From Betaproteobacteria bacterium (GTDB taxonomy: Bacteria; Pseudomonadota; Gammaproteobacteria; Burkholderiales; Casimicrobiaceae), in the NCBI GenBank assembly GCA_029884335.1, contig JAOUIA010000033.1, positions 1-41,182 of the forward strand: a DNA stretch of 41,182 nt, written 5' to 3'. The position numbers and the translations under genes are program-made. Positions 2,593-20,615 of this stretch are shown piece by piece. The notes beneath the pieces are model-generated. The model made no database searches. It saw only the letters and a program-made list of their open reading frames with translations, and had not been told where the DNA came from. Every line of letters starts with the position of its first letter. Position 1 is the stretch's first letter.

Positions 2593-4107
<1,515 letters not shown>

Positions 4108-4112
4108 GCGCC

Positions 4113-4130
4113 GCAGGGTCCCGGCCCTGC
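4113..4130 (+). terminator. Weak stem-loop after lysS
   Basis: GCAGGG (4113-4118) and CCCTGC (4125-4130) form a perfect 6-bp stem with a TCCCGG loop just after the lysS stop. No run of T follows, so intrinsic termination is uncertain. Confidence 0.3.
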
Positions 4131-4160
4131 CGGGCGGGGTTCCGCGCGGACTTGCGCGAT

Positions 4161-4177
4161 ATACCGGGTAGGGGTAT
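4161..4177 (+). promoter_or_regulatory. Probable CsoR operator upstream of copA
   Basis: ATACCGGGTAGGGGTAT is a quasi-palindrome with perfect ATACC/GGTAT ends around a G-rich centre, the layout of known CsoR operators. It ends 9 bp before the copA ATG. A weak promoter can be drawn with -35 TTGCGC (4152-4157) and -10 TATCGT (4175-4180) at 17 bp spacing, so a bound repressor would cover the spacer and the -10. A CsoR gene at the end of the same operon supports autoregulation by copper. Confidence 0.65.
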
Positions 4178-4186
4178 CGTGGCGGC

Positions 4187-6427
4187 ATGGCGTCCCCCAC
4201 GCTTGCCGTCACGGACGCGCCGCCGCGCCCGGCGCAGCCGCCTTCAGCCCGCGTCGAGCTGGCCCTCGAGGGGATGACCTGCGCGGCCTGCGCCGCCCGC
4301 ATCGAGAAGGTGCTGAACCGGATGCCGGGCACGCAGGCGAGCGTCAACTTCGCCACCGAGTCCGCGGTGGTCCGCCACGACCCGGCGGCCGCACCGGTCG
4401 ACGCGCTGATCGAGACCGTGCAGCGCGCCGGCTTCGGCGCGCGCGTGAAGCGCGACGTCGAGGCAGAGCGCGCGGCCGGCGAGGCGCGCAAGGCCGCCGC
4501 GTACAAGTCGTTGCGCACCGAGTTCATCGTCGCGGCGGTCTTCACGCTGCCGCTGCTGCTGCAGATGCTGCCGATGCTCGCCGGCGCCGGCCACGACGTC
4601 ATTCCGCGGTGGTGGCAGTGGCTGCTCGCCACCCCGGTGCAGCTGTGGGTCGGACGCCGCTTCTACGTCGGCGCGTGGAACTCGCTGCGCGGCGGCGGCG
4701 CGAACATGGACGTGCTGGTGGCGCTGGGCACGACGATGGCCTACGCGTGGTCGGCGATCGTCACGCTGCTCGATCGCCACGACCTGCACGTCTACTTCGA
4801 GGCCGGCGCGGCCGTCATCACGCTGGTGCTGCTCGGCAAGCTGCTGGAGGCGCGCGCGAAGGCGGGAACGTCCGTCGCGCTCGAGGGGCTGCTGAGGCTG
4901 CAGCCGAAGACTGCATTCGTCGAGCGCGACGGTGCGATCGTCGAAGTGGCGCTCGCGAGCGTGGCGGCCGGCGACCGCTTCGTCGTGCGTGCCGGCGACT
5001 CCGTGCCGGTCGACGGCATCGTCGTCGACGGCACGTCCAGCGTCGACGAGAGCATGCTGACCGGCGAGAGCCGCGCGGTCGCCAAGGGCGCCGGCGACCG
5101 CGTCTTCGCCGGGACCGTGAACCACGACGGCACGCTGCGCGCCACCGCGACCGGCGTGGGCAGCGCGACGCTGCTCGCCGGCATCGTGCGCCTGGTCGGC
5201 GAGGCGCAGGGCTCGAAGGCGCCGATCCAGCGCCTTGCCGACCGCATCGCCGGCGTGTTCGTGCCGGTGGTCGTGGCGATCGCGCTCGTCACGCTGGCCG
5301 CGACGTGGTGGCTGACCGGCGAGCTCGCGCAGGCGCTGGTGAACTCGGTGGCCGTGCTGGTGATCGCCTGTCCCTGCGCGCTCGGTCTCGCCACGCCGAC
5401 TGCAGTCATCGTCGGCACCGGCCGCGCCGCGCAGCTCGGCGTGCTGATCCGCAACGCCGAGGCGCTCGAGCAGGCGGGGCGCGTGACCACACTGATCGTC
5501 GACAAGACCGGCACGCTGACCGAAGGCAGACCGGAGGTCGTCGCGGTGGACGCGTTCGCCGGCGCGAGCCGGGCCGACGTGCTCGCCCTGGCGGCCGGTC
5601 TCGAGCAGGGCGCATCGCACCCGCTCGCGCAGGCCATCGTCGCGCGCGCGCAGCGCGAGGGCGTCGTGCCGATCGCCGTGCGCGACTTCGCGTCGGTGCC
5701 GGGCAAGGGTGTTCGCGCCGTCGACGAGCGGGGACGCGCGCTGCAGTTGGGGTCGCCCGCGTTCCTCGTCGAGCAGGGACTGGATGCGGCGGCGCTCGGC
5801 GCGGAACACGCCGCGGCAGGGCGCACGGTCGTCGGCATTGCGCGCGGCGGCGTCCTCATCGGTGTCGTGGCGCTCGCCGACCGCGTGCGGCCGACCTCGC
5901 GCGCGGCCGTCGCCCGCCTGCGCGATGCCGGCATCGACGTCGTGATGATCACCGGCGACCACGAGGCGACTGCGCGGGCCGTCGCTGCCGAGGTCGGCAT
6001 CGGCGAGGTGCGCTCCGGCGTGCTGCCGTCCGGCAAGGCCGAGGCGGTGGCCTCGCTCAAGTCCGCGGGCCGCGTCACCGGCATGGTCGGCGACGGCGTC
6101 AACGACGCGCCTGCGCTCGCGGCGGCCGACGTGGGCTTCGCCATCGGCGCCGGGTCGTCGATCGCGATCGAGGCGGCCGACGTGACGCTGGTGCGCGACG
6201 ACCTCGACGCCGCCGTCGACGCGATCCTGCTGTCGCGCGCGACCCTGGCCAAGATCCGCCAGAACCTCTTCTTCGCGTTCGCCTACAACGTGCTCGGCAT
6301 CCCGCTGGCCGCCGTGGGCCTGCTCAACCCCGTGATCGCGGGCGCGGCGATGGCCGCAAGCTCGGTGTCGGTGGTGAGCAACGCGCTGCTCCTGCGCCGC
6401 TGGCACCCGCCGCGGCGCGTCTCGTGA
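4187..6427 (+). CDS. copA: Copper-translocating P1B-type ATPase
   Basis: A 746-residue inner-membrane pump that exports Cu(I) from the cytoplasm at the cost of ATP. It has one N-terminal heavy-metal-associated domain with GMTCAAC (Cys32, Cys35), several membrane helices, and the actuator TGES. The CPC metal site in the membrane is Cys395-Pro-Cys397, typical of the Cu(I) subclass. The phosphorylated aspartate is Asp439 (DKTGT), followed by the HP nucleotide-binding motif (SHPLAQA) and the hinge GDGVNDAPAL. Length is normal for a single-HMA CopA. It is followed after 11 bp by a small copper chaperone gene and then by a CsoR repressor, which confirms copper rather than zinc or cadmium. Confidence 0.95.
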   Translation: MASPTLAVTDAPPRPAQPPSARVELALEGMTCAACAARIEKVLNRMPGTQASVNFATESAVVRHDPAAAPVDALIETVQRAGFGARVKRDVEAERAAGEARKAAAYKSLRTEFIVAAVFTLPLLLQMLPMLAGAGHDVIPRWWQWLLATPVQLWVGRRFYVGAWNSLRGGGANMDVLVALGTTMAYAWSAIVTLLDRHDLHVYFEAGAAVITLVLLGKLLEARAKAGTSVALEGLLRLQPKTAFVERDGAIVEVALASVAAGDRFVVRAGDSVPVDGIVVDGTSSVDESMLTGESRAVAKGAGDRVFAGTVNHDGTLRATATGVGSATLLAGIVRLVGEAQGSKAPIQRLADRIAGVFVPVVVAIALVTLAATWWLTGELAQALVNSVAVLVIACPCALGLATPTAVIVGTGRAAQLGVLIRNAEALEQAGRVTTLIVDKTGTLTEGRPEVVAVDAFAGASRADVLALAAGLEQGASHPLAQAIVARAQREGVVPIAVRDFASVPGKGVRAVDERGRALQLGSPAFLVEQGLDAAALGAEHAAAGRTVVGIARGGVLIGVVALADRVRPTSRAAVARLRDAGIDVVMITGDHEATARAVAAEVGIGEVRSGVLPSGKAEAVASLKSAGRVTGMVGDGVNDAPALAAADVGFAIGAGSSIAIEAADVTLVRDDLDAAVDAILLSRATLAKIRQNLFFAFAYNVLGIPLAAVGLLNPVIAGAAMAASSVSVVSNALLLRRWHPPRRVS

Positions 6428-6438
6428 AAGGAAGGACG

Positions 6439-6648
6439 ATGGAGATTGTGAAGCTGGACGTGCAGGGCATGACCTGCGGTGGCTGTGTCGCGAGCGTCAC
6501 CCGCGTGCTGAAGGCAACGCCCGGAGTGAGTGAGGCGCAGGTGACGCTGCAGCCGGGGGCTGCGACCGTGACCTTCGACCCGGCGAAGGTCCAGGTCCCG
6601 CAGCTCAAGGCCGCGATCGTCGGGGCGGGCTTTGAAGTCGCCGGCTGA
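6439..6648 (+). CDS. copZ: Small copper chaperone (HMA domain)
   Basis: A 69-residue single heavy-metal-associated domain with the Cu(I)-binding motif GMTCGGC near the N-terminus and the usual ferredoxin-like fold pattern ending in [10 protein letters not shown]. It probably hands Cu(I) to the HMA domain of CopA in the cytoplasm. The start ATG has a strong ribosome binding site (AAAGGAAGG) 4-12 bp upstream. Its last 17 nucleotides overlap the start of the csoR gene in another frame. Confidence 0.92.
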
Positions 6649-6937
6649 GAGGCCCGCCGCGCGCGTCGCGCGCAAGCCGCAGGACAAGGCCGCGCTCGCC
6701 CGCCGCATCAACCGCATCGAGGGACAGGTGCGGGGGATCGGCAAGATGATCGACGAGGACCGCTACTGCGTCGACGTCCTCACCCAGGTCAGCGCCGTGC
6801 GCTCGGCGCTCGACTCGCTAGCGCTCGGCCTGCTCGACCGTCACCTGCACGGTTGCGTGCAGCGCGCGGTGCGCACCGGCGAGGGCGATGCGGCGATGGA
6901 CGAGGCGATGGACGTCGTCAGCAAGTTCGTCCGCTGA
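6632..6937 (+). CDS. csoR: CsoR-family copper-sensing repressor
   Basis: A 101-residue all-helical repressor of the CsoR/RcnR (DUF156) family. The metal ligands Cys46, His71 and Cys75 keep the 25 and 29 residue spacing of the Cu(I) sensors and differ from the RcnR (nickel/cobalt) and CstR (sulfide) patterns. The family core [22 protein letters not shown] is present, starting at residue 25. Copper binding should release it from the operator upstream of copA. The start is a TTG at 6632 inside the chaperone gene, which implies translational coupling; no ATG fits before the conserved core. The stop codon touches the left arm of a palindromic repeat. Confidence 0.9.
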
Positions 6938-7074: not shown

Positions 7075-7151
7075 CGGGGTGTAGCGCAGCCCGGTAGCGC
7101 GCTTGCTTTGGGAGCAAGATGTCGCAGGTTCGAATCCTGTCACCCCGACCA
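7075..7151 (+). tRNA. tRNA-Pro (anticodon TGG)
   Basis: The 77-nt sequence folds as a full cloverleaf. The acceptor stem is CGGGGTG/CACCCCG with discriminator A and an encoded CCA end. The anticodon stem CTTGC/GCAAG holds the loop TTTGGGA, anticodon TGG. The T arm is intact (GGTTCGAATCC). Confidence 0.97.
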
Positions 7152-7193
7152 GGACACACGCCCGGCGCACGCGGGACGACGCGGGAGGGCACG

Positions 7194-8408
7194 ATGCCGT
7201 TGACCGCAGCCTTGTTCCGCTCGCTCGCCATCGCGGGTGCGCTCGCCGCGGCCGACGCGAGCGCGCAGGTCTCCGACGGCGTCGTGAAGATCGGCGTACT
7301 GACCGACATGTCGAGCCTGTACGCCGACGCGACCGGGACCGGCTCGGCGCTCGCGGCGCGGCTCGCGGTCGAGGACTTCGCGCCCGAACGCCGCGGGCTC
7401 AAGGTGCAGGTCGTCGAGGCCGACCACTTGAACAAGCCGGACGTGGGCGCGGCCATCGCGCGGCGCTGGTACGACGTCGAGCAGGTTGACGCCATCGCCG
7501 ACGTGCCGAACTCCGCCGTCGCGTTCGCCGTCCACCAGCTGACGCGCGAGCGCGGCAAGGCGCTGCTCATCTCGGGCGCGGCGAGCTCGGACCTCACCGG
7601 CAAGGCCTGCTCGCCCAACACGGTCCACTGGACGTACGACACCTGGATGCTCGCCAGCGGCACCGGCAGCGCGGTCGTGCGCACCGGGGGCGACAGCTGG
7701 TTCTTCCTCACCGCCGACTACGCGTTCGGCCACGCGCTCGAGCGCGACACCGAGGCGGTGGTGGCGCGCTCCGGCGGCAAGGTGCTCGGCCGCGCCCGCC
7801 ACCCGCTCAACACGCAGGACTTCGGCTCGTTCCTGCTGCTCGCGCAGGCGTCGAGGGCGAAGGTGATCGGGCTCGCCAACGCCGGCGGCGACACGACGAA
7901 CGCGATCAAGCAGGCTGCCGAGTTCGGCATCGTCAAGGGCGGGCAGCGGCTCGCCGGGCTGCTGGTCGGCATCACCGACGTCCACGCGCTGGGCCTGCCC
8001 ACTGCGCAGGGGCTGACGTTCGTCGAGGCCTTCTACTGGGACCGCGACGAGCGCACGCGCGCCTTCGCGCGCCGCTTCGCCGAGCGCAACCGCGGCATCC
8101 ACCCGACGATGATCCACGCCGGCGTGTACTCGGCTGTGCTGCACTACCTCAAGGCGGTCGAGGCGCTGGGCAGCGACGACGGCACGCGCGTGGTCGCGAA
8201 GATGAAGGAGCTGCCCACCGACGACCCGCTGTTCGGCAGGGGCACGATCCGCGCCGACGGCCGCAAGCTGCACCCCGTTTACCTGGTCGAGGCGAAGGCG
8301 CCCTCCGAGTCGCGCGCGCCGTGGGACTACTACCACGTGCGCGCCACGATCCCCGCCGAGCAGGCGTTCCGGCCGCTCGCGGAAGGCGGTTGCCCGCTCG
8401 TCAGGTGA
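7194..8408 (+). CDS. Periplasmic substrate-binding protein, branched-chain amino acid ABC transporter type
   Basis: A 404-residue type I periplasmic binding protein (Peripla_BP_6 class, LivJ-like). The N-terminus is a signal peptide (FRSLAIAGALAAADASAQ) followed directly by the family opening VKIGVLTDMSSLYADATG. Later family stretches include FFLTADYAFGHALERDTE and IGLANAGGDTTNAIKQAAEF. The ATG at 7194 is chosen because of the GGGAGGG just upstream and the signal peptide; an open frame further upstream runs back into tRNA-Pro. No permease or ATPase gene lies nearby, so its transporter partners must be elsewhere, or it serves another system. The ligand is unknown: relatives bind amino acids, amides or aromatic acids. 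Confidence 0.92.
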   Translation: MPLTAALFRSLAIAGALAAADASAQVSDGVVKIGVLTDMSSLYADATGTGSALAARLAVEDFAPERRGLKVQVVEADHLNKPDVGAAIARRWYDVEQVDAIADVPNSAVAFAVHQLTRERGKALLISGAASSDLTGKACSPNTVHWTYDTWMLASGTGSAVVRTGGDSWFFLTADYAFGHALERDTEAVVARSGGKVLGRARHPLNTQDFGSFLLLAQASRAKVIGLANAGGDTTNAIKQAAEFGIVKGGQRLAGLLVGITDVHALGLPTAQGLTFVEAFYWDRDERTRAFARRFAERNRGIHPTMIHAGVYSAVLHYLKAVEALGSDDGTRVVAKMKELPTDDPLFGRGTIRADGRKLHPVYLVEAKAPSESRAPWDYYHVRATIPAEQAFRPLAEGGCPLVR

Positions 8409-8467
8409 CCAAGCGCGACCGCGCGCGGTCATTCTTCACCTGCGCCGCCAGGACCCTGGGCCCCCGC

Positions 8468-8490
8468 CCCCCGACTGCAGAACTCGGGGG
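8468..8490 (+). terminator. Stem-loop after the binding-protein gene
   Basis: CCCCCGA (8468-8474) and TCGGGGG (8484-8490) form a perfect 7-bp stem with a 9-nt loop, 60 bp after the stop. No T run follows. It separates the binding-protein gene from the three-gene operon. Confidence 0.35.
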
Positions 8491-8544
8491 CAGGCTTCGC
8501 GGGGGCGACGGCGAATCGGCGTCATCCCCGCGCGGACCTGCTGT

Positions 8545-8573
8545 TTGACCTCGTCACGCGAATCGTGGACACT
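8545..8573 (+). promoter_or_regulatory. Possible promoter of the SIR2-TIR/STAND/cyclase operon
   Basis: TTGACC (8545-8550) is a good -35. GACACT (8568-8573) is a poor -10 at exactly 17 bp spacing. Transcription would start near 8580, which fits translation from ATG 8646 and not from the GTG at 8565. Confidence 0.3.
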
Positions 8574-8645
8574 CTGCGCGCGCTGCGCGAACGTGCGACA
8601 GACACCGCGCGCGGCCCACTCATCCGACGGAGCGACGTAGCGGCG

Positions 8646-10022
8646 ATGGCTAGCGTGCTGCCCTTGCAGGTCCCGGCGCAGGAGCTGGACGACGACGCGT
8701 GGGACGACCTGCTCTCGTTCATCGAGGAGAGGCGCGTCATCCCGATCATCGGGCCGGAGCTTCTCGAGGTCGAGACTCCCGCCGGCCCTCGCCTGCTCTA
8801 CGAGTGGGTCGCCGAGCGGCTGGCCGAGAAGCTCGGCGTGGACGCCTCGCAGCTGCGCCAGCCGCTCACGCTGAACGACGTCATCTGCCTGTACCTCGCC
8901 GCGCGTGGCCGCCGCGAGGAGGCGTACGCGCGCATCCGCGCCATCCTGCGCGACGCCGACTTCGCGCCGCCCACGGCGCTGCGCCAGCTCGCCGCGATCA
9001 CCGACTTCGACCTCTACGTCACCACGACGTTCGACCCGCTGCTCGAGCGCGCGCTCAACGACGTGCGCTTCGCCGGCGCGCAGTCGACCGAGGTCGTCGC
9101 GTACTCGCCGAATCGCGTCGCCGACATTCCCTCCGAGCGCGAGCGCCTGCAGCGTCCTGTCGTCTACCACCTGCTCGGGCGCCTGTCCGCCTCGCCGACC
9201 TACGTCGTCTCCGACGAGGACACGCTGGAGTTCATCTGCGCGCTGCAGAGCGAGCACCTGACGCCCGAGAAGCTGTTCCACGAGCTCGAGCACAACCACC
9301 TGCTGTTCATCGGCAGCAGCTTCACGAACTGGCTCGCGCGGCTGTTCCTGCGCATGGCCAAGCGCCGCCGGCTCTCGGACCCCCGCGACGTCGGCGAGGT
9401 GCTGGCCGACAGCCACAGCGGGGCCGATACGCGCCTCATGGGCTTCCTGCAGCAGGTCAGCGTGCGCACGCGCGTCTACAGCGGCGCGCAGAAGTTCGTC
9501 GACGAGCTGCACCGGCGCTGGACGACGCGCCGCGGCCCCGGCGAGGTGATCGCGCTCGGCGCCGCGCCGCGCCGGTTCCTGCCGCCCGAGCGCGAGATGC
9601 CCGACAACGCCGTGTTCGTGAGCTACGCGCGCGACGACCTGCCGGCGGTGCAGCGCCTCAAGGCCGGCCTCGACGCCGCCGGCATCACCGCGTGGTTCGA
9701 CATGGAGCGCCTCGAGGGCGGCGACGACTACGACCGCAAGATCCAGCGCAACATCGCGCGCTGCTCGTACTTCGTGCCCGTGGTCTCGGCGACCACGCAG
9801 CGCCGCCTCGAAGGCTACTTCCGCCGCGAGTGGAGCTACGCGGTCGACCGCACGCGCAACATGGCCGACGAGGCCGTGTTCATCCTGCCGGTGTGCATCG
9901 ACGACACCGACGCCTCGACGGCGAGCGTGCCGGACAAGTTCAAGTCGGTGCACTTCACGCGCCTTCCCGGCGGCGAAGTCACGCCGGAGTTCGCGAAGCG
10001 GCTGGCGGACCTGCGCAAGTGA
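8646..10022 (+). CDS. SIR2-like/TIR domain fusion protein
   Basis: A 458-residue cytoplasmic protein without membrane segments. Residues about 18-300 match the SIR2-like fold of bacterial defence proteins: VIPIIGPELL takes the place of the GAG loop, TTTFDPLLE (T126-D130) that of TTNYD, YHLLG carries His175, and LLFIGSSFTNWLARLF ends the domain. The usual catalytic Asn is Thr128 and the GAG loop reads GPE, so this half may not cleave NAD. The C-terminal TIR domain (from about residue 320) has FVSYARDD, WFDMERLEGGDDY and FRREW, with Glu395 a good catalytic candidate. The start is uncertain: ATG 8646 puts 18 residues before the conserved WDDLL, and GTG 8565 is the alternative. It overlaps the STAND gene by GTGA. 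No close family is recognised for the whole protein; it is probably a nucleotide-sensing or NAD-cleaving effector (inference). Confidence 0.85.
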   Translation: MASVLPLQVPAQELDDDAWDDLLSFIEERRVIPIIGPELLEVETPAGPRLLYEWVAERLAEKLGVDASQLRQPLTLNDVICLYLAARGRREEAYARIRAILRDADFAPPTALRQLAAITDFDLYVTTTFDPLLERALNDVRFAGAQSTEVVAYSPNRVADIPSERERLQRPVVYHLLGRLSASPTYVVSDEDTLEFICALQSEHLTPEKLFHELEHNHLLFIGSSFTNWLARLFLRMAKRRRLSDPRDVGEVLADSHSGADTRLMGFLQQVSVRTRVYSGAQKFVDELHRRWTTRRGPGEVIALGAAPRRFLPPEREMPDNAVFVSYARDDLPAVQRLKAGLDAAGITAWFDMERLEGGDDYDRKIQRNIARCSYFVPVVSATTQRRLEGYFRREWSYAVDRTRNMADEAVFILPVCIDDTDASTASVPDKFKSVHFTRLPGGEVTPEFAKRLADLRK

Positions 10023-13000
10023 ACGAAGTCCGCGAAGCGGCCGCCGCCGCGACGGCGGACGCCGCCACCGTCGACCGCCAGCACCCCTGGCTCGGGCTCG
10101 CCTCGTTCACCGAGGAGACGCGCTCGTACTTCCACGGCCGCGAGGAGGAGGTGGGCGAGCTCGCGCGGCGCGTGCAGCGCAAGCTGCTCACGATCCTCTT
10201 CGGCCAGTCGGGGCTGGGCAAGACCTCGATCCTGCGCGCGGGGCTGGTGCCGAAGCTGCGGCCGGAGGGCTACTGCCCGGTCTACGTGCGCATCGACTAC
10301 TCGCCCGAGTCGCCGCCGCCCTCCGAGCAGATCAAGCAGGCGATCTTCCGCGAGACGAAGTCGTCGGGCACGTGGACGCAGACCGGCGTGGCGGTCGAGG
10401 GCGAGTCGCTGTGGGAGTTCCTGCACCACCGCGACGACGTGCTGAAGGACGCCGACGGCCGCACGCTCGTGCCGCTGGTCATCTTCGACCAGTTCGAGGA
10501 GGTGTTCACGATCGCGCAGGGCGACGCTTTCGGCCGCGACCGCGCCCACCAATTCCTCGCCGACCTCGCCGACCTGGTCGAGAACCGCCCGCCGAAGGCG
10601 CTGGAGGCGAAGCTCGACGAGGACGACACCGCGGTCGAGCGTTTCGACTTCGCCCGCGCCGACTACCGCATCCTGATCGCGCTGCGCGAGGACTACCTCG
10701 CGCACCTCGAGGGCCTCAAGGGCATGATGCCCTCGATCACCCAGAACCGCATGCGGCTCGCGCGCATGACCGGGACGCAGGCGCTGGCCGCCGTGACGCG
10801 GCCGGGCGGCAGGCTCGTGACCGAGGAGGTCGCCGAGGCGATCGTGCGCTTCGTCGCCGGCGGCGCCGAGCTGCGCAACGCCGAGGTCGAGCCGGCGCTG
10901 CTCTCGCTCGTCTGCCGCGAGCTCAACAACGCGCGCATCGCGCAGGGCAGCGCGGAGATTTCGGCGGACGTGCTCGCCGGCTCGCGCGACACGATCCTCG
11001 GCGAGTTCTACGAGCGCGCGCTGGCCGACCAGCCCGAGCGCGTGCGGCAGGTGATCGAGGACCACCTGCTCACCGACTCGGGCTACCGCGAGAGCCTCGC
11101 CGAGGAGCGGCTGCAGAAGCTGCTGAACGAGGCGGGGGCCGCGCCCGGCACGATGGGCAAGCTCGTCGACCGCCGCCTGCTGCGCGTCGAGGAGCGCCTC
11201 GACGTGCGCCGCGTCGAGCTGACCCACGACGTGCTGACCGGCGTGGTCAAGGCGAGCCGCGACCTGCGCCTCGAGCGCGAGGCGCGCGAGGAGGCGGAGG
11301 CGAAGCTCGCGGCGCAGCGCGAACGCGAGCAGGCCACGCGCCGCGCGCTGGTGCGCGCGCGCCAGATCGCCGCTGGCTGTGCGGTGCTGGCCGTGGTGGC
11401 GATCGGCAGCGCCGTGTACGGCTACTTCGCGACCGAGCGCGCGAAGGCCGCCGAGGCGAAGTCGGAGGAGACTCGCCTCATGGCCGAGCAGGCGCGCGGC
11501 GAGGCGGAGAAGCTCGTCGTCTACCTGCTCGACGACTTCCAGCTCGAGCTCGCGCCCGTCGGGCGGCTCGACATCGTCGCGGAGCTGGCCAAGCGCGCGA
11601 TCGACTACTACAACGGGCTGCCGGCGCCGCTGCGCACACCGCAGTCGGAGCGAAACCGCGCGCTCGCGCTGGTGCGCTACGGCAGCGTTCTGCGCACCCA
11701 GGCGCGCATGGACGAGGGCAGCAAGGCGGTCGACGAGGCGGTGAAGATCCTCTCCGACCTGCGCGAGCAGGGCGACCGCTCCGAGCCGACGACGATCGGC
11801 CTGGCGATGGGGCTTGCCGCGCAGGCGCGGCTGGTGCAGGGCGGGGGCGGGGGCAACGACAAGGCGGCGCTCGCGCTCGCCGAGCGCGCAGCCGAGGTAA
11901 TCCGGTCGGCGGCCGGCGCGCCGAACTCTTCGGTCGCGCTGCGCCGCACGCTGGGCGAGGTGCTGACCGGGCAGGGGTTCATTCTCGACCGCCTGCGCGA
12001 TCCGCGCACATTCACGGTCCTCGACGAGGCGCGCGAGGCGTTCCGCTCGATCGACGGCCTTGCGATGACGGACCTGCCTTCCGCAGCCGGCTACGCGGAG
12101 TCGACCGTGTGGAAGGTCCAGGCGCTGATGAACGCCGGCCGCGCCGACGAGGCCGCCGAGCTGGGCAAGGAGAGCCTGGCAGTGTCGCGGCGGATCATCG
12201 AGAAGCGCCCCGGCCACATGCAGGCGCTGCGCGCGCAGGCGGTCAGCACGTCCACGCTCGCCCGCGCCCACCTCGACCGGCTGCAGCCGTCCGAGGCGCT
12301 GAAAATGTCCGATGCGACCGTCGCGGCGTGGGAGGAATTCCTGCGGCTCGATGCGAGCAACATCATCTCGTTGTCCAACCTCGGCGTGGCGCGGTTCGGT
12401 CGCTCGAACGCATTGCTGGAACTGGGCCGGGTGGGGGAAGCCGCGGCGACGCTGCGCGAAATGACGAGGCGCTACGAGAGCGCGACGCCGAGCCTCTTCC
12501 TCAACGACCAGATTTCGTTCGCCAACACCCGCCTGGCCAATGTCGAGGCGTCGCGCGGCAATGCGCGCGCGGCGGAGGAGGCAATGCGCCGAGGCGACGC
12601 GGCTCGCGACTGGCAGGTGAAGAACTCGCCGGCCGGGAGCTGGCGGGCGCAGTCGCGGCCCCTGTACAACCCGTTCACGCAGGCGCTGGTCGCGGGCCAG
12701 CTGGGCGACGATCGTCGGGTACTCGAGCTTGGCCGCGACCTCGCGCCGAAGCTGGCGGCGCTGACCGCCACGGACCAGGGCAGCACGCTCGAGAAGGCGA
12801 ACACCCGCCGCTCGCTGAGCGTATTGATGGCGCTGGCGGCGTACCGGCTGGGCGACTACGCGGCCGCCGAGAGGGCCACGGCGGTTGCGCTCGAGCAGTG
12901 GAGCGTTCTGCGGCCCGACGAGCAGGGCGAGCGGCGCGACGAGGCAAGTGACCGCGCGTTGCGCGCGCTGGTGCTCGTGCGGCTCGGGCGGCAGGACGAA

Positions 13001-13249
13001 GCGCGCGCGCTGGCCGGCCCCGTGCTGGCGCTGCAACGCGGCCTCGCGTCGAAGAACCAGGGCAGTGCGGGGCAGCGTTTCGAACTCGCTCAGGCGCTCA
13101 TCGCCGCAGCCGCGTCGGGCATCGGCGACGCGCGCGCGCAGCGTGCCGAGGCCGCGCGCCTCATCGACGGCCTGCCCGAGGAGTTCCGCGACACCAGCGA
13201 CGTGAAGTTCTGGCGCGCGCGCCTCGCGGAGGTGGCGGCGCGGCCGTGA
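10019..13249 (+). CDS. Membrane-anchored STAND NTPase (nSTAND1-like) with C-terminal helical repeats
   Basis: A 1076-residue protein starting at GTG 10019, which overlaps the TIR gene stop. The N-terminus has the nSTAND1 opening WLGLASFTEETRSYFHGREE, a Walker A GQSGLGKT (residues 62-69, Lys68) and a Walker B LVIFDQFEEVF with Asp157. A winged-helix-like region reaches about residue 440 (LVDRRLLRVEERLDVRRVEL), then a charged coiled-coil stretch (EREAREEAEAKLAAQREREQ). One transmembrane helix lies at about residues 450-471. The rest, to 1076, is alpha-helical and TPR-like with diverged repeats, the usual place for a ligand-sensing superstructure in STAND proteins. STAND proteins are ATP-driven switches that oligomerise when the sensor meets a trigger. 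It probably controls the SIR2-TIR protein and/or the cyclase encoded beside it (inference from the operon). Confidence 0.88.
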   Translation: MNEVREAAAAATADAATVDRQHPWLGLASFTEETRSYFHGREEEVGELARRVQRKLLTILFGQSGLGKTSILRAGLVPKLRPEGYCPVYVRIDYSPESPPPSEQIKQAIFRETKSSGTWTQTGVAVEGESLWEFLHHRDDVLKDADGRTLVPLVIFDQFEEVFTIAQGDAFGRDRAHQFLADLADLVENRPPKALEAKLDEDDTAVERFDFARADYRILIALREDYLAHLEGLKGMMPSITQNRMRLARMTGTQALAAVTRPGGRLVTEEVAEAIVRFVAGGAELRNAEVEPALLSLVCRELNNARIAQGSAEISADVLAGSRDTILGEFYERALADQPERVRQVIEDHLLTDSGYRESLAEERLQKLLNEAGAAPGTMGKLVDRRLLRVEERLDVRRVELTHDVLTGVVKASRDLRLEREAREEAEAKLAAQREREQATRRALVRARQIAAGCAVLAVVAIGSAVYGYFATERAKAAEAKSEETRLMAEQARGEAEKLVVYLLDDFQLELAPVGRLDIVAELAKRAIDYYNGLPAPLRTPQSERNRALALVRYGSVLRTQARMDEGSKAVDEAVKILSDLREQGDRSEPTTIGLAMGLAAQARLVQGGGGGNDKAALALAERAAEVIRSAAGAPNSSVALRRTLGEVLTGQGFILDRLRDPRTFTVLDEAREAFRSIDGLAMTDLPSAAGYAESTVWKVQALMNAGRADEAAELGKESLAVSRRIIEKRPGHMQALRAQAVSTSTLARAHLDRLQPSEALKMSDATVAAWEEFLRLDASNIISLSNLGVARFGRSNALLELGRVGEAAATLREMTRRYESATPSLFLNDQISFANTRLANVEASRGNARAAEEAMRRGDAARDWQVKNSPAGSWRAQSRPLYNPFTQALVAGQLGDDRRVLELGRDLAPKLAALTATDQGSTLEKANTRRSLSVLMALAAYRLGDYAAAERATAVALEQWSVLRPDEQGERRDEASDRALRALVLVRLGRQDEARALAGPVLALQRGLASKNQGSAGQRFELAQALIAAAASGIGDARAQRAEAARLIDGLPEEFRDTSDVKFWRARLAEVAARP

Positions 13250-15054
13250 GCGACGCTGAAGCGGGGTTGCGCGAACGCGTCCGCGCGCACCTCGACCGCG
13301 GCGCGCCGTGGGACGCGTGCGACGCGTTCCGCGAAGCCGAGCCGTGCGACGACCCGGAGTGGCTGTTCCTCGGCGCGCTGGCGCACGCGCGCGCCGGTGC
13401 TGTAAGCGAAGCGCACGCGCTGCTCGATCGCGCGGCAGGCGCATCCGGGGCGGAGTGCGCGGCGCTGCACGGCGAGATCCTCGCGCTGCGCGGCCGGCTG
13501 TGGAAGGACGCGCTGCACCGCTCCGCATCAGGGCCGTCGGCACTCGCGGCCGCCGCGCGCGCGCGCGACGAGTACCGTGCGGCCTACGCGCTTGCCCGCG
13601 AGCCCTTCCCCGGCATCAACGCCGCGACGCTGTCGATGCTGCTCGGCGAGCAGGAAGCCGCACGCGCCCTTGCGGGGGAGGTCGAGGCGACGCTCGCCGC
13701 GCGCGGCGTCCCGCTCGCCGGTTGGGACCTGTTGACCGCAGCGGAGGCTGCGCTGTTGCGCGGCGACGTGGCCGCTGCGCGCGACCGGTACGCTCAGGCG
13801 TGGGCGGAGGCGAAGCACGACACCGGCCGCATCGCCAGCGCGCGCCGCCAGCTGCGGCTGCTCGCGCGTGCGCTGCCCGCCGCTGCGGACATGCTGCCCG
13901 TGCTGCGCGCGAGCGATGTCGTCGCTTTCACCGGCCACATGATCGACGCGCACGACCGCCCCGACCCGCGCTTTCCCGCTGCGCTGGAGCCTGCCGTCGC
14001 CGCGGCGCTGCGCGAGCGCGTCGCGCACTGGCACGCGCCGGCGGTGTTCGCCTCGGCGGCGTGCGGGGCCGACATCCTCATGCTGGAGGCGGCGCTCGAT
14101 GCCGGCGCCGAGGTCAACGTCGTGCTGCCGTTCCCGCGCGACGAGTTCGTGCGCACCAGCGTCGCGCCCGGCGGCGAAGGCTGGGGGAAGCGTTTCGACA
14201 CGGTGCTCTCCCGCGCATCGCGCGTGATCCTCGCTACCACCGAGGGCTACCTCGGCGACGACGTGCTCTACGAGTACGCTGCGCTGCTGGTGGAGGGGTT
14301 GGCCACGTTGCGCGCCACGCAGCTCGAGACGGCGCCGCTGCTCGTCGCCGTGCTCGAGCCGGGCTCCCCCGCGCATACAGGCGGCACGCGACATGCCGTG
14401 GAGCGCTGGCGGCAGGCGGGCGGCACGGCGGACGTGATCGACCTCTCGGCGCTGCGTGCGGGCAGGGGCGCAGCCGGAGCTGCGCGCGCGGCGGCGGACG
14501 CTGCGAAGGAGCGGGCGTCGCACTCGCGCCGGACGCTCAAGTCGATGCTGTTCGCCGACATCGCCGGCTACAGCCGCCTGCGCGACGAGGAGGTGCCGCG
14601 CTTCCAGCGCATCTTCTGGGACCTGGCCGCACGCGAGCTGGCGGGCGCGGACGAGCCAAGGCTCGCGAACACCTGGGGCGATGCGGTGTTCGCGGTGTTC
14701 GACACGCCACGGCAGGCCGCGGCGTGCGCGCTGCGCCTGCGCGACGCGATGCGCACGACCGACTGGCGCGCGGCCGGCCTGCCGGAGACGACCGCGATCC
14801 GCATTGCGCTGCACGCCGCTCCCGTGTTCAGCGGCCACGATCCGGTCATCGGCCGCGAGAACTACTTCGGCGCCGGCGTCACGCGCGCCGCGCGCATCGA
14901 GCCCGTCACGCCGCCGGGGCTCGTCTACGCCAGCGAGGCGTTCGCGGCCACACTCGCCGCGCAGGACGCAAGCTGGTCGCTGGAGTACGTCGGGACGCTC
15001 AAGCTCGCCAAGCAGTACGGCGAATCAAGGCTTTACCGCGTCGAGGGACGGTAG
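13246..15054 (+). CDS. TPR-like/SLOG-like/class III nucleotidyl cyclase fusion
   Basis: A 602-residue protein starting at GTG 13246 that overlaps the STAND stop by GTGA. Residues 1 to about 215 resemble the TPR-S (TRAFs-binding-type) repeat domain, with PFPGINAATLSMLLGEQEAA as the key stretch. Residues about 222-405 look like a Rossmann-type SLOG (LOG/DprA-like) ligand-binding domain (VVAFTGHMID, SAACGADILMLEAALDAGAE, VNVVLPFPRDEF). Residues about 432-600 are a class III cyclase domain with metal aspartates Asp438 (FADIAGYS) and Asp479 (NTWGDAVFAVF). The residues that normally select ATP are changed: Asn475 sits where Lys is expected and Asn539 where Asp is. The transition-state Asn is Thr546, while Arg550 is kept. 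It could make an unusual cyclic nucleotide or be a pseudo-enzyme that senses nucleotides. SLOG domains are predicted nucleotide-ligand sensors, which fits an immune signalling role (inference). Confidence 0.85.
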   Translation: MSDAEAGLRERVRAHLDRGAPWDACDAFREAEPCDDPEWLFLGALAHARAGAVSEAHALLDRAAGASGAECAALHGEILALRGRLWKDALHRSASGPSALAAAARARDEYRAAYALAREPFPGINAATLSMLLGEQEAARALAGEVEATLAARGVPLAGWDLLTAAEAALLRGDVAAARDRYAQAWAEAKHDTGRIASARRQLRLLARALPAAADMLPVLRASDVVAFTGHMIDAHDRPDPRFPAALEPAVAAALRERVAHWHAPAVFASAACGADILMLEAALDAGAEVNVVLPFPRDEFVRTSVAPGGEGWGKRFDTVLSRASRVILATTEGYLGDDVLYEYAALLVEGLATLRATQLETAPLLVAVLEPGSPAHTGGTRHAVERWRQAGGTADVIDLSALRAGRGAAGAARAAADAAKERASHSRRTLKSMLFADIAGYSRLRDEEVPRFQRIFWDLAARELAGADEPRLANTWGDAVFAVFDTPRQAAACALRLRDAMRTTDWRAAGLPETTAIRIALHAAPVFSGHDPVIGRENYFGAGVTRAARIEPVTPPGLVYASEAFAATLAAQDASWSLEYVGTLKLAKQYGESRLYRVEGR

Positions 15055-15094
15055 GCGCCGGTGCGGGCGGCTTCGCCTGACCCCTCGCCTGTGG

Positions 15095-15100
15095 TAGAGT
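15095..15100 (+). promoter_or_regulatory. Possible -10 box for the tRNA-Arg/tRNA-His unit
   Basis: TAGAGT (4 of 6 matches) is preceded at 17 bp by a weak TTCGCC (15072-15077). It lies about 70 bp before tRNA-Arg, in the only gap between the cyclase gene and the tRNAs. Confidence 0.3.
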
Positions 15101-15171
15101 TTTGCCTCTTCCCGGGCCGCGCGATGCCGTGCGTTCCGGGGCCGCGTCCCGCGGGTTCGGCTTCGTTCGAG

Positions 15172-15248
15172 GCGCCCGTAGCTCATTCGGATAGAGCACC
15201 GGCCTTCTAAGCCGGCGGTAACAGGTTCGAATCCTGTCGGGCGCGCCA
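15172..15248 (+). tRNA. tRNA-Arg (anticodon TCT)
   Basis: A 77-nt cloverleaf with acceptor GCGCCCG/CGGGCGC, discriminator G and an encoded CCA. The anticodon stem CCGGC/GCCGG holds the loop CTTCTAA, anticodon TCT, which reads the rare AGA and AGG arginine codons in this GC-rich genome. Confidence 0.97.
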
Positions 15249-15259
15249 GTCTTTCCAGC

Positions 15260-15335
15260 GGTGGCTGTAGCTCAGCGGTAGAGTCCCGGATTGTGATTCC
15301 GGTTGTCGTGGGTTCGAATCCCATCAGCCACCCCA
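15260..15335 (+). tRNA. tRNA-His (anticodon GTG)
   Basis: A cloverleaf with acceptor GTGGCTG/CAGCCAC, the His-specific extra G at -1 (15260) facing C73, and an encoded CCA. The anticodon loop TTGTGAT gives GTG. It begins 12 bp after tRNA-Arg, so both are probably cut from one transcript. Confidence 0.97.
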
Positions 15336-17558: not shown

Positions 17559-20500
17559 TTGAGCGAATTCCTCGCCCTGCTGCTGACGGACGTCGTCGAC
17601 AGCACCCGCATCGCCGAGGCCGTCGGCGATGCGGTGATGACGGCGCACTGGGTTGCGCACGACCGTGCTGCGCGCGACCTGCTGCGCACCTGGCGCGGCC
17701 GCGAGGTCGACAAGACCGACGGCTTGATGGCGGTCTTCGACTCCGCCGCCGATGCCGCCGCGTTCGCCATCGACTACCACCGTGCGCTGGCCGCGCTGGG
17801 CGTGCCGTTCAAGGCGCGCGCCGGTGTGCACGTCGGGTCCGTGACGTTGCGCGAAAACAGCCCGGCCGACGTGCTGCTGGGCGCCAGGCGGTTCGAGGTG
17901 GACGGCGTCGGCGTGTCCATTGCCGCGCGGGCCATGGCCGCGGCCCTGGGCGGGCAGACGCTGCTGACGGCCGACGCCCGGCGCGCCCTTGGCGACACCC
18001 GCTTTCGCATCGAGTCGCACGGATTCTGGCGCCTGAAGGGCCTGAACGACCCGGTCGAGCTCTTCGAAATCGGCGACGCGCAGGCTCCATTCACGCCGCC
18101 GCCCGAGGCGGACAAGGCCTACCGCGTCCTGCTCATCGACGGGCTGTGGCAGCCGCTGCGCACGGTGCGGCACAACCTGCCGCCGGAGCGCGACGCGTTC
18201 GTCGGCCGCGTCGCCGAGCTGCAGGGCCTGGCGCTGCAACTGCAGGCGGGGACGCGGCTCTTGTGCCTCCTCGGGCCGGGAGGTACCGGCAAGACTCGCC
18301 TTGCGCGCCGCTACGCGCTGGCGTGGTTGGGCGAGTGGCCCGGCGGCGTGTATTTCTGCGACCTCTCCGAGGCCCGCGGCCTCGACGGCATCTACTTCGC
18401 CGTGGCTTCGGCGCTTGGCGTGCCGCTGGGCAAGGGTGATCCCGCCGCGCAGTTGGGGCACGCCATCGCGGGTCGCGGCCGCTGCCTTTTGATCCTCGAC
18501 AATTTCGAGCAGGTTCAGCAGCACGCAGTCGCCACGGTCGGGCGATGGCTCGACCGGGCCGGCGAGGCGGCGTTCGTGGTCACGAGCCGTGAGCGGTTGC
18601 ACCTCGAAGGCGAGCAGGTGCTCGTCGTCGAGCCGCTGCGACTGGATGGCGAGGCGATCGAGCTGTTCGCGGTCCGCGCCCGCGCGCAGCGGCCCGGGTT
18701 CGAGGTAGACGACGGCAATCGCTCCGTCGTGGCCGAGGTGGCGAGGCTGCTCGACGGGCTGCCGCTGGCCATCGAGCTTTCCGCCGCGCGAATGCGCGTG
18801 CTGTCGCCCGCGCAGATCGTCGAGCGCCTGAAGGACCGGTTCGCGCTGCTCGCCGGGGTCAAGGGCGCCGCGAAAAGGCAGGCGACGCTGCGCGCGGCTA
18901 TCGACTGGTCGTGGGATCTGCTGGCGCCCTGGGAGCAGAACGCGCTGGCGCAGTGCTCTGTGTTCGAAGGCGGTTTCACGCTGGCGGCGGCCGAGGCCGT
19001 ACTCGACCTTCGCGCCTGGCCCGAGGCGCCGCCGCCGATGGATGCGGTCCAGTCCCTGGTGGACAAGAGCCTGCTGCGGTTCTGGGTGCCGGCGCAAGCC
19101 CACGGTCGGCTTAGCCTCGACGAGCCTTACTTCGGCATGTACCTGTCCATCCACGAGTACGCCGCCGAGAAGCTGCAGCTCGGCGGCGCGGACGAGGTGC
19201 GGCGCGTGCAGGAGCGACACGGCCGCTGCTACGCCCGGCACGGGGCGAGCGACGCCGTCGCGGCGCTGGGAACGCACGAAGGCGTCGGCCTCCGGCAGGC
19301 GCTGGCCTTCGAGCTCGAAAACCTGATCGCGGCGTGCCGGCGCGCGGTCCAGCGATGCGATCCGGAAGTGGCGGCGCCGAGCTACCGGGCGATCTGGGAA
19401 GTCCTGCACCTGCAAGGACCGTTCGCGATGTGCCTGGAGCTGGGTTCGCAGGTGCTCGCGCTCGACGGCGTCCCCGCGCGGTCGCGGATCGACGTCGAGT
19501 TCGCGATGGCCGACGTCCTTCTGCGCGTGGGTCGCATCGACGACTCGCGTGCGCTCCTCGAGCATTCGCTGGCGAGGGCGCGCGAACTCGGCGACCGACG
19601 CCGCGAGGGCCTCGCGCTCGGGCTGCTGGGCGATGTCGACCGCGAGCAGGGTCGCATGGACCGCGCCAGGACGAATCTCGAAGCCGCCCTGGCCATTCAT
19701 CGGGAAGTCGGCAACGCCCGTGGCCAGGCGACCGTGCTGCAGAACCTGGGCAATCTGCTCGACCAGCGCGGGGAGGCCTCGCAGTCGCGATCCTGTCACG
19801 AATCGGCCCTCGCGATCTTCACCGCCCTCGGCCATAGGCACGGCGTCGCGCAGGTGCGCGCCAGTCTAGGCATCCTGAACCGGCATCAGGGCCGGATGGA
19901 CGAAGCCCGGGAGCACTACGAAGCGGCGCTGGCGATCTTCCAGGAGGTGGGCGATCGCCGCTCCGAAGGCATCGCGCTCGGCAATCTCGCCAACCTGCTG
20001 GACGATCAGGGACACAGCGACGAGGCGCGAGTACGGCACGAGGCGGCGCTCGCCATTCACCGCGAGGTCGGCAGCCGCGTGGTCGAGGCCTATGCGCTCG
20101 GCAACATCGGCTTGCTGCACTGCCATCTGGGACGCCGTGACGAGGCGCGCGCCTGTCTCGAGCAGGCGCTGGCGATCGATCGCGAAACGTCGAACCGGAT
20201 CCACGAAGGGGTCGTGCTGCTGAACCTCGGAGAGCTGGATCTCGCCGAGGGTCGGTTCGCCGAAGCGCAGGCCCGGCTGGACCAGGCGCAGCGGATCAAC
20301 CGCGCGACCGGCGATCGTCTCGGCGAGGGCATGGCGCTGGGTCTGCTCGGCGAACTGGCGCGGAGGACGGAGGGCTTCGCCAGAGCGCTGGAAGTGCTCG
20401 GGGAGGGAGAGGCGCTGATGCGAGCGATCGACGATCCCGTCGAGCTGGCCCATCTGCTGTGCTCGAAAGTTCGCGCCGCGCTGGATGCGGGCGACCACGA

Positions 20501-20615
20501 GCTCGCGCGGACTACGCTGGCCGAGGTCGCGGGCATCGCCAAGGGAATCGCTGCGACGGCCGATTCGAGGCTTGCGCGCGAGATCGACAAGTTGCGGGTG
20601 ACCGTGGGCAGCTAG
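17559..20615 (+). CDS. Class III cyclase-like/NB-ARC-type ATPase/TPR multidomain protein
   Basis: A 1018-residue protein that starts at TTG 17559. Residues 1 to about 170 are a class III cyclase-like domain: Asp11 (LLLTDVVDST) and Asp54 (EVDKTDGLMAVF) fit the two metal sites, but the Gly before Asp54 is Thr and the substrate-binding positions are not canonical, so activity is doubtful. An ATPase of the NB-ARC/COG3903 type follows, with Walker A GPGGTGKT (residues 239-246, Lys245) and Walker B CLLILDNFEQ (Asp314). From about residue 640 to 950 there are tetratricopeptide repeats of about 40 residues with an EAALAI...GDRR.EG.ALGNL pattern. Such proteins act as signal-responsive switches or transcription-linked regulators. 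It has no DNA-binding or membrane domain, stands alone and points away from tRNA-His. Its output is unknown. Confidence 0.88.
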   Translation: MSEFLALLLTDVVDSTRIAEAVGDAVMTAHWVAHDRAARDLLRTWRGREVDKTDGLMAVFDSAADAAAFAIDYHRALAALGVPFKARAGVHVGSVTLRENSPADVLLGARRFEVDGVGVSIAARAMAAALGGQTLLTADARRALGDTRFRIESHGFWRLKGLNDPVELFEIGDAQAPFTPPPEADKAYRVLLIDGLWQPLRTVRHNLPPERDAFVGRVAELQGLALQLQAGTRLLCLLGPGGTGKTRLARRYALAWLGEWPGGVYFCDLSEARGLDGIYFAVASALGVPLGKGDPAAQLGHAIAGRGRCLLILDNFEQVQQHAVATVGRWLDRAGEAAFVVTSRERLHLEGEQVLVVEPLRLDGEAIELFAVRARAQRPGFEVDDGNRSVVAEVARLLDGLPLAIELSAARMRVLSPAQIVERLKDRFALLAGVKGAAKRQATLRAAIDWSWDLLAPWEQNALAQCSVFEGGFTLAAAEAVLDLRAWPEAPPPMDAVQSLVDKSLLRFWVPAQAHGRLSLDEPYFGMYLSIHEYAAEKLQLGGADEVRRVQERHGRCYARHGASDAVAALGTHEGVGLRQALAFELENLIAACRRAVQRCDPEVAAPSYRAIWEVLHLQGPFAMCLELGSQVLALDGVPARSRIDVEFAMADVLLRVGRIDDSRALLEHSLARARELGDRRREGLALGLLGDVDREQGRMDRARTNLEAALAIHREVGNARGQATVLQNLGNLLDQRGEASQSRSCHESALAIFTALGHRHGVAQVRASLGILNRHQGRMDEAREHYEAALAIFQEVGDRRSEGIALGNLANLLDDQGHSDEARVRHEAALAIHREVGSRVVEAYALGNIGLLHCHLGRRDEARACLEQALAIDRETSNRIHEGVVLLNLGELDLAEGRFAEAQARLDQAQRINRATGDRLGEGMALGLLGELARRTEGFARALEVLGEGEALMRAIDDPVELAHLLCSKVRAALDAGDHELARTTLAEVAGIAKGIAATADSRLAREIDKLRVTVGS

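Follow-up and report, generated by a model that had tools for sequence, protein, structure and literature searches.

The window, by which the whole stretch of 41,182 nucleotides analysed here is meant, carries three genes in succession on its forward strand. Gene 1 (8646..10022, 458 aa) encodes a SIR2-like domain with replaced catalytic residues and a TIR domain, as read from the ORF, Pfam, alignment and fold matches. Gene 2 (10019..13249, 1076 aa, GTG start) encodes an nSTAND1 NTPase (aa 23–431), one predicted transmembrane (TM) helix (aa 444–462) and a TPR-like C-terminal region, according to ORF, Pfam, alignment and hydropathy, and gene 3 (13246..15054, 602 aa, GTG start) encodes a TPR-S domain (about aa 1–215), a SLOG-like domain (about aa 223–400) and a class III cyclase (aa 428–602), according to ORF, Pfam, alignment and a structure model. 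The ORF ends place a forward-strand GTGA overlap between genes 1 and 2 at 10019..10022 and another between genes 2 and 3 at 13246..13249, confirming the layout given in a preliminary description of this DNA. The main domains named there are also real, that is, SIR2-like, TIR, STAND and cyclase by Pfam and the membrane helix by hydropathy, with the SLOG-like domain standing at modest confidence.

The genes lie in a variable interval bordered on the left by tRNA-Pro(tgg) (7075..7151, forward strand) and on the right by tRNA-Arg(tct) and tRNA-His(gtg) (15172..15335, forward strand), all located with ARAGORN, the right border being given also by the empty site in relatives; gene 3 is flanked by gene 2 upstream and by these tRNA genes downstream. 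The same interval holds a called gene resembling, by eye, that of an ABC-type substrate-binding protein (7194..8408, forward strand), which probably lies outside the system: its best match in four examined relatives has no window neighbours alongside, and it was rejected as a system part. By eye, no integrase is apparent among the genes called in the window, and border direct repeats were also set aside, the single 9-base word common to short stretches at three borders being probably due to chance. The start of gene 1 is ambiguous, as its frame is already open from a GTG at 8565; among the best 80 of 207 loci, tblastn matches to gene 1 relatives reach residue 1, counted from the 8646 start, in 21 and set in at residues 2–32 in the remaining ones.

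First of all, gene 1 matches SIR2_2 (4e-13) and TIR_2 (6e-18) above the Pfam family cut-offs, and its SIR2_2 fold is found by both the Pfam profile and the fold matches. In the residue alignments (84 rows for gene 1, 81 for gene 2 and 17 for gene 3; L088 is absent from A4 and A6), the position of the aligned SIR2 catalytic Asn is Thr in 83 of the 84 members and Ser in one, and that of the catalytic His is Leu or Phe in all 84. In the window these are Thr128 (codon 9027..9029, forward strand), where catalytic SIR2_2 domains have Asn, and Leu177 (codon 9174..9176, forward strand), where they have the His of 'HG'. In a control set of 30 SIR2_2 domains, Asn is kept in 17 and the HG motif in 15; a first comparison set contained another degenerate SIR2_2 family and was unusable as a control. 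That is to say, gene 1 lacks the Asn and His of a catalytic SIR2-type NADase, and its SIR2 part is probably not an active one. His175, two residues from the lost aligned His, is conserved in 83/84 members and could in principle be a substitute for it.

The TIR domain has both the fold and the conserved Glu of a TIR NADase: Glu395 (codon 9828..9830, forward strand), its candidate catalytic residue by alignment, is Glu in 81 of the 84 rows, the other three having a gap there. Since the SIR2 part is without its catalytic Asn and His, the TIR is the only predicted NADase of gene 1. The two NADase-type folds proposed earlier, SIR2_2 and TIR, are indeed present, but with the aligned SIR2 Asn and His lost they do not amount to two effectors, and from this residue comparison two active NADases in gene 1 are unlikely. 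Against the PADLOC models, gene 1 matches the TIR portion of several, Argonaute and SAVED models among them, with weak matches to ThsB (E 0.0015) and ThsA (E 0.0054).

Gene 2 matches nSTAND1 at 6.5e-32, above the family cut-off, and the Walker A and B residues of a STAND NTPase, Lys68 and Asp157, are kept in 81/81 aligned proteins. In a simple hydropathy scan of the gene 2 proteins longer than 900 aa, plus L063 and L071 (n = 62), one TM helix was found in 54, two in six and three in two; in 51 of the 54 single-helix proteins, Lys and Arg are richer in the 15 residues before the helix than after it, and the TPR part is predicted to lie on the outer side of the membrane. This placement had not been considered in the preliminary description. 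The TPR region diverges fast, whereas the switch part does not. No PADLOC model matches gene 2 at E 0.1.

Gene 3 matches TPR-S, a family of conflict systems (3.4e-13), and Guanylate_cyc (3e-6) above their Pfam cut-offs; the TPR-S domain had previously been overlooked. For the middle domain of the window protein, Pfam gives no match, and cpYpsA, a SLOG family, is matched there by two of the 14 aligned members (best E 0.0078). The predicted structure model of gene 3 matches a DprA-like phage protein of 153 aa (E 3.5e-4, TM 0.72 on the target), and we infer that this match falls on the middle domain. In a profile comparison with DprA, the middle domain gave no significant result, no better than that of an unrelated profile; a sequence search for a SLOG domain against solved structures returned nothing meaningful, and the YAcAr search added nothing. 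On the cpYpsA and model matches, the SLOG-like assignment is kept with modest confidence. In the cyclase, the metal-binding Asp residues are kept in the gene 3 proteins, and at the alignment site that we take to correspond to the Asn typical of class III cyclases there is Thr, Ser or Val in 15/17; the activity of the cyclase may therefore be low or changed. Position 475, presumably the site of the base-specifying residue in purine cyclases, is Asn in 10, Glu in four and Lys in three of the 17. The gene 3 alignments do not include L080, L083, L084 and L091, the gene 3 proteins of which were found by similarity. PADLOC models gave no match to gene 3 at E 0.1 either, which agrees with the earlier statement that the set corresponds to no named defence system.

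The reading favoured here, held with moderate confidence, is that the TIR, gated by STAND, produces a signal derived from NAD, that this signal is read by the TPR-S/SLOG part of gene 3, and that the cyclase converts it, the whole being an accessory signalling or conflict module. At the membrane or outside it, the gene 2 TPR region would sense a trigger; ATP-driven STAND assembly would then cluster the separately encoded SIR2-like–TIR protein, with the SIR2 domain as a scaffold or as a regulator binding NAD or another ligand. The TIR would consume NAD+ and yield an ADP-ribose-type signal, and the TPR-S/SLOG part of gene 3 may bind it and activate its own cyclase, turning an NAD-derived message into a cyclic nucleotide. 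The likely end point would be that the infected cell stops growing or dies, by loss of NAD, by cNMP signalling or by both routes.

The first two genes are not peculiar to this genome. A genome scan of one species-level genome collection found 207 gene 1 relatives, and the best 80, nearest to the window, were examined, with genes called by a simple codon-usage script; because of this choice, the proportions of partners below do not represent the family at large. An nSTAND1 gene accompanies the SIR2-TIR gene in 78/80 (L099 and L102 are without a STAND match), and the exact 4-base overlap of genes 1 and 2 is seen in 53 of these 78, so the pairing of SIR2-TIR with STAND is more than chance. This two-gene core recurs in many uncultured bacteria, and its switch and enzyme portions show strong conservation.

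The third place is more variable. Gene 3 lies downstream of the core in eight of the 80 loci and divergently upstream in 11; among the alternative partners, a SLOG-like membrane protein is found in eight and a PGDYG+SLATT pair in 11, the SLATT_1 matches of partner proteins (24.6 and 25.2 bits) falling just below the Pfam cut-off of 26.3. In sister loci, this slot is taken by membrane-domain proteins of SLOG-like or PGDYG type, which looks like an exchange of the output while the reading part stays. Among the 38 well-flanked cores, that is, those with at least 2.5 kb on each side, 10 have a gene-3-type protein and in 16 no third partner was recognised, so the core can occur alone; the production in fixed ratio that had been read from the overlaps need not hold for gene 3. 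Conversely, 18 genomes have a gene-3-type protein outside the core, and none of them holds a SIR2-TIR (four of the genomes show weak matches to its TIR part); gene 3 therefore does not belong to the core alone, and its candidacy as a dedicated third gene was dropped.

These counts bear on a rather doubtful alternative, namely that gene 3 is a co-transcribed passenger tuning expression via cNMP, and that the two genes of the core already form a full abortive system, with direct activation of the TIR by STAND. The cores without a recognised partner and the 18 genomes without any SIR2-TIR are what it would lead one to expect. However, gene 3 occurs near the core in two orientations and changes setting at least three times on its own tree (gains and losses are not told apart), which suggests repeated pairing of gene 3 with the core. 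Moreover, in the eight other genomes of the window genus with a full-length gene 1, gene 3 is kept downstream in seven, and in the eighth the contig ends too early. Both trees were made by a quick method without bootstrap, and L062 and L063 are absent from the tree other than that of gene 3.

Within the window genus, the module is present, at different sites, in nine of 22 genomes, several of these genomes being incomplete; in the relatives G287, G292 and G280 the insertion site is empty, with tRNA-Pro followed directly by tRNA-Arg. The module is accessory, and the patchy distribution with empty sites by which defence systems are judged is found here. Since it is accessory and recurs in other genomes, neither outcome named in the preliminary description as speaking against it (conservation as core genes in all relatives, or no recurrence elsewhere) is what was found. 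Spread by viruses or phages was rejected, as no gene 1 relatives were found in viral or phage collections and no gene 3 relatives among viral contigs. In the plasmid search, gene 1 has two matching records, of which the better is a SIR2-TIR on a 2.6 Mb replicon (32% identical over 76%); for gene 3 there are 35, with no match extending over 80% of that gene.

A defence role is plausible from family resemblance and patchy spread. It is unlikely that the module is instead a regulator sensing stress or the envelope, in which the STAND TPR region senses the periplasmic state and the cyclase feeds Crp-type transcription factors. The TPR region predicted on the outer side in 51/54 single-helix proteins and the 11 cNMP-binding matches in the window genome fit such a regulator, as do the surroundings, the window neighbours being housekeeping-like and no defence island being evident around the window genes, both judged by eye. 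Against it stand the patchiness, differing sites and empty sites in the genus, the fast divergence of the TPR region beside a switch that does not diverge so, and the partner family TPR-S, which is typical of conflict systems. The partner families SLATT and TIR are likewise described in published work as families of conflict systems.

As for the order of the steps, gene 3 relatives outside the core have a TIR gene nearby in at least 9/17 cases and a Crp-type regulator in at least 8/17; these counts are lower bounds, since the neighbours scanned with Pfam were chosen by eye (10 TIR-like, eight Crp-like and two small proteins), and the tenth TIR-like neighbour (L295) shows WD40 families only, among the matches listed. 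Because gene 3 relatives stand close to further TIR genes and to cNMP binders of the Crp type, a cyclic nucleotide downstream is suggested, and the order with the TIR first is likelier than the earlier proposal of cyclase first and TIR last. That proposal gives the sensing to STAND and the relay, a cNMP, to the cyclase, and leaves the TIR (with SIR2) as a terminal NAD-depleting effector that the cNMP switches on. It is quite improbable, for although all parts share one operon and the TIR Glu is kept, Pfam finds no cNMP-binding domain in gene 1 or gene 2, a gene-3-type cyclase protein is present in only 10/38 well-flanked cores, the SIR2 is degenerate, and the neighbours just named point the other way.

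The TIR-first reading can be extended, tentatively, to a two-step relay: the STAND-gated TIR would yield an NAD-derived nucleotide, a TPR-S/SLOG receptor related to the regulatory region of animal ASK1 would read it, and the class III cyclase joined to that receptor would turn it into a cyclic mononucleotide, with a sirtuin pseudoenzyme gating or scaffolding the TIR and with the core taking SLOG-SLATT or PGDYG+SLATT partners as well. If the relay is true, NAD-derived and cyclic-nucleotide signalling are linked in series, and the TPR-S/ASK1 sensor fold has a bacterial setting. The core is also widespread (207 relatives in one collection, 80 examined), while genes 2 and 3 have no match among the PADLOC models, and the natural partner swaps have already been made around one conserved switch. 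A further warning is that 'SIR2 plus TIR' need not equal two NADases.

Among known systems, Thoeris differs in several points. In ThsA a catalytic SIR2 is joined to SLOG or a different sensor, whereas the window SIR2 is degenerate and fused to TIR, with the SLOG-like domain fused to a cyclase and a STAND protein added. ThsB is a TIR making a cADPR signal for SLOG; the window has a TIR and a SLOG-like domain, and the match to the ThsB model is the weak one given above. In Avs5/SIR2-STAND and other STAND anti-phage proteins the effector is fused, in Avs at the N terminus with a sensor at the C terminus, whereas here it is a separate gene, and gene 2 is of the nSTAND1 type, with a membrane helix separating the NTPase from the TPR region and without a match in PADLOC. 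Gene 3 is not a PycC-type cyclase as in Pycsar, the system of cCMP or cUMP synthesis, by these searches, the PADLOC library presumably including a PycC model. Kongming KomC and DSR2 keep the catalytic SIR2 residues (the His is named in entry titles), and so do the SIR2 subunits of SPARSA, whereas the window SIR2 is without the aligned Asn and His. In the literature searched, in which subscription journals are thinly covered, no description of the SIR2-TIR/nSTAND1 pair was found.

With the central regulatory region of ASK1 (MAP3K5) the comparison lies in the TPR-S part, the window protein being bacterial and having SLOG-like and cyclase domains, not a kinase. There is likeness to loci of TIR, pNTSase1, TPR-S-SLOG-cyclase and Crp genes, which were reportedly predicted by Burroughs and Aravind in J Bacteriol in 2020 (families TPR-S PF20308 and pNTSase1 PF20301). 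No pNTSase1 or Crp-type gene was seen beside the window operon, farther neighbours being judged by eye. What the two share is a homologous TPR-S, SLOG-like and cyclase protein near a TIR enzyme; what sets the window apart is a TIR that shares its protein with a degenerate SIR2 domain and is coupled to nSTAND1.

The SIR2-TIR gene (gene 1, 8646-10022) and the gene for nSTAND1, a transmembrane (TM) helix and a TPR region (gene 2, 10019-13249) were followed as a core through a genome contig collection, in which a scan with gene 1 aligned to three of its relatives recovered 207 relatives. Among the best 80 of these 207, nearly all from metagenome assemblies and titled Burkholderiales/Betaproteobacteria, Gammaproteobacteria and Opitutae/Verrucomicrobia among others, nSTAND1 adjoins gene 1 or lies one small gene away in 78, and the two genes overlap by 4 bases in 53 of these 78. 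The median identity to the window at these loci is 73% for SIR2, 75% for TIR and 74% for STAND, and falls to 33% in the TM-TPR portion of gene 2. The gene 1 values are inflated because gene 1 was the query; the contrast of STAND and TM-TPR within gene 2 is unaffected. Of 62 gene 2 proteins, 54 have a single predicted helix in a simple hydropathy scan, and because Lys/Arg are more abundant ahead of this helix than behind it in 51 of the 54, the TPR part is predicted to lie outside the membrane.

Two far relatives keep the pair in other forms: in G174, SIR2 and TIR are separate overlapping ORFs followed by nSTAND1; in Paraburkholderia caribensis, SIR2-TIR overlaps nSTAND1 by ATGA, and a MAP3K_TRAF_bd/TPR-S protein is encoded two genes upstream. 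The core of a locus titled Mycobacteriaceae (L094) clusters with cores titled Gammaproteobacteria and the like, and its title or bin may be wrong. At five loci titled Opitutae, Opitutus, Opitutia or Lacunisphaera (L097, L114, L132, L133 and L141), TIR genes pointing in one direction follow each other in runs on one or both sides of the pair. In TIR they are about 45-52% identical to gene 1, and the one scanned consists of TIR and TPR.

The TIR residue Glu395 is conserved in all 81 rows that have a letter there, and the STAND residues Lys68 and Asp157 in 81 of 81. The preliminary description had credited the gene set with two NADase-type folds; as two effectors these are not supported, both the Asn and the aligned His of SIR2 being absent from 84 of 84 rows. 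The window carries Thr at the aligned Asn place and Leu-Gly at the aligned HG place; across the family, the Asn place is occupied by Thr in 83 rows and Ser in 1, and at the His place 56 rows have Leu and 28 have Phe. As a control, 120 genomes from the order were found to contain 51 SIR2_2 matches, and in the 30 examined as loci, the window's own among them, Asn stands two residues ahead of the motif Asp in 17 and the HG motif occurs in 15. According to PMC12700824, Asn and His are both required in FAM118 sirtuins, and His is required in ThsA. Since the aligned counterparts of the residues required in FAM118 sirtuins are replaced, the SIR2 part of gene 1 is probably no NADase. His175, two residues ahead of the lost His place, is conserved in 83 of 84 rows and might substitute for the catalytic His. 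A second degenerate SIR2_2 family (L227, L236-L244), in which Trp replaces the Asn and HG is missing, accounts for 10 of the 30 order-wide matches examined.

The third component is the TPR-S/SLOG-like/class III cyclase protein (gene 3, 13246-15054) in the window. The preliminary description had proposed a search for the three-gene order elsewhere, and within the genus, where gene 1 is full-length in 8 further genomes, 7 of them have this same order, the contig of the eighth being too short. Among the best 80 of the 207 relatives, a gene-3-type protein lies downstream on the same strand of 8 cores and upstream and divergent at 11, in three of which at least one TIR gene intervenes; a SLOG-like protein with membrane segments accompanies 8. 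PGDYG together with a SLATT-type two-helix membrane protein is a recurrent third component at 11 of the 80 (L090, L093, L101, L110, L111, L118, L120, L128, L139, L140 and L145), the two SLATT_1 matches tested both falling slightly below the Pfam cut-off. Where at least 2.5 kb is available on both sides (38 loci), a partner is found in 22, gene 3 in 10 of them, and none was recognised in 16. On a core tree built by a quick method, the five partner states require at least 18 changes and the presence of gene 3 at least five. Four of the 8 SLOG-like proteins with membrane segments are matched in their SLOG part by the gene-3 profile, so it seems that the reader and the output are each swapped as a unit.

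Gene 3 also occurs outside the core. Of 398 genomes of the phylum, 24 match the gene-3 profile with an E value of 1e-30 or lower: the match spans at least 500 of 614 positions in 14, counting the window's own, and is confined to TPR-S and SLOG in 4 and to the cyclase in 6. SIR2-TIR was found in none of 18 genomes (the 17 others with a near-full or TPR-S and SLOG match, plus G038), in 4 of which there are weak matches to its TIR part. Of these 17, at least 9 have a Pfam-confirmed TIR gene adjoining or one small gene away, and at least 8 have a cNMP-binding regulator of Crp type nearby; two small neighbour genes tested both belong by Pfam match to pNTSase1 ("predicted novel nucleotide synthetase"), one barely above the cut-off. 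Compact loci (L298, L301, L304 and L308-L311) combine TIR(-TPR), a small gene (both of those tested match pNTSase1), TPR-S/SLOG with or without cyclase, and a Crp-type regulator, and are likely a separate conflict system. On a Caballeronia plasmid (L072, 5833-8987), a gene-3-type protein overlaps by 4 bases a 463-aa gene with a lipoprotein-like start, with annotated TIR and DUF4231 genes nearby. The cyclase residues Asp438, Asp479 and Arg550 are conserved in 17 of 17 gene-3 proteins; where class III cyclases usually have Asn, only 2 of the 17 do.

On a quick gene-3 tree, the SIR2-TIR core setting versus the rest requires at least three changes, gain and loss being indistinguishable. Gene 3 appears to pass from one core to another, because the downstream copy in L079 and the divergent copy in L088 are sisters with support 100 and their cores are not. 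The settings and tree of gene 3 are evidence against a fixed three-gene machine and in favour of a protein that reads TIR products and has a cyclic nucleotide as its output.

Full-length gene 1 occurs in 9 of 22 genus genomes, the window's own included, several of these genomes being incomplete. In the window, the interval from tRNA-Pro to tRNA-Arg (7152-15171, about 8.0 kb) holds the module and a substrate-binding-type gene. Without the module, the gap is 119 bases in G287, 68 in G292 and 72 in G280, all of which share left-hand genes with the window (relatives of those at 2593-6937, by eye lysS, copA, copZ and csoR); G280 does carry the module, but on a different contig from its empty tRNA site. 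Different cargo of 1.55 and 1.89 kb occupies the interval in G278 and G276, and the interval is a variable cargo site in the genus. No border repeats were seen at its borders, nor any integrase by eye among the called window genes. The substrate-binding-type protein (7194-8408) has a 76% identical second copy on another contig of the same genome (C115). Further along, 17559-20615 encodes a protein of 1018 aa in which a weak match to class III cyclases is accompanied by an AAA domain and numerous TPRs. In two other members of the genus (L221, 7248-9443; L223, 950-3193), relatives of this protein at 34% identity directly adjoin the same tRNA-Arg/tRNA-His pair that borders the interval in the window.

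The best reading, given about even odds, is that STAND gates signalling by TIR and that gene 3 reads and amplifies the signal downstream. Judging from Thoeris and from SLATT/SLOG theory, together with the neighbour data, STAND would switch on TIR, TIR would produce an ADPR-type signal, the TPR-S/SLOG part of gene 3 would bind it, and the cyclase would respond. Phage defence is a plausible role because of the usual company of these domains and their patchy spread. Among PADLOC models, none was found for the variant of degenerate SIR2-TIR, membrane nSTAND1 and exchangeable partner. The parts and the general plan (STAND with TIR, TPR-S with TIR, and SLOG readers) are of known or predicted conflict-system kinds, and what makes this a variant is that TIR is fused to a degenerate SIR2, that the fusion stays paired with a membrane nSTAND1, and that the SLOG-type partners are exchangeable.
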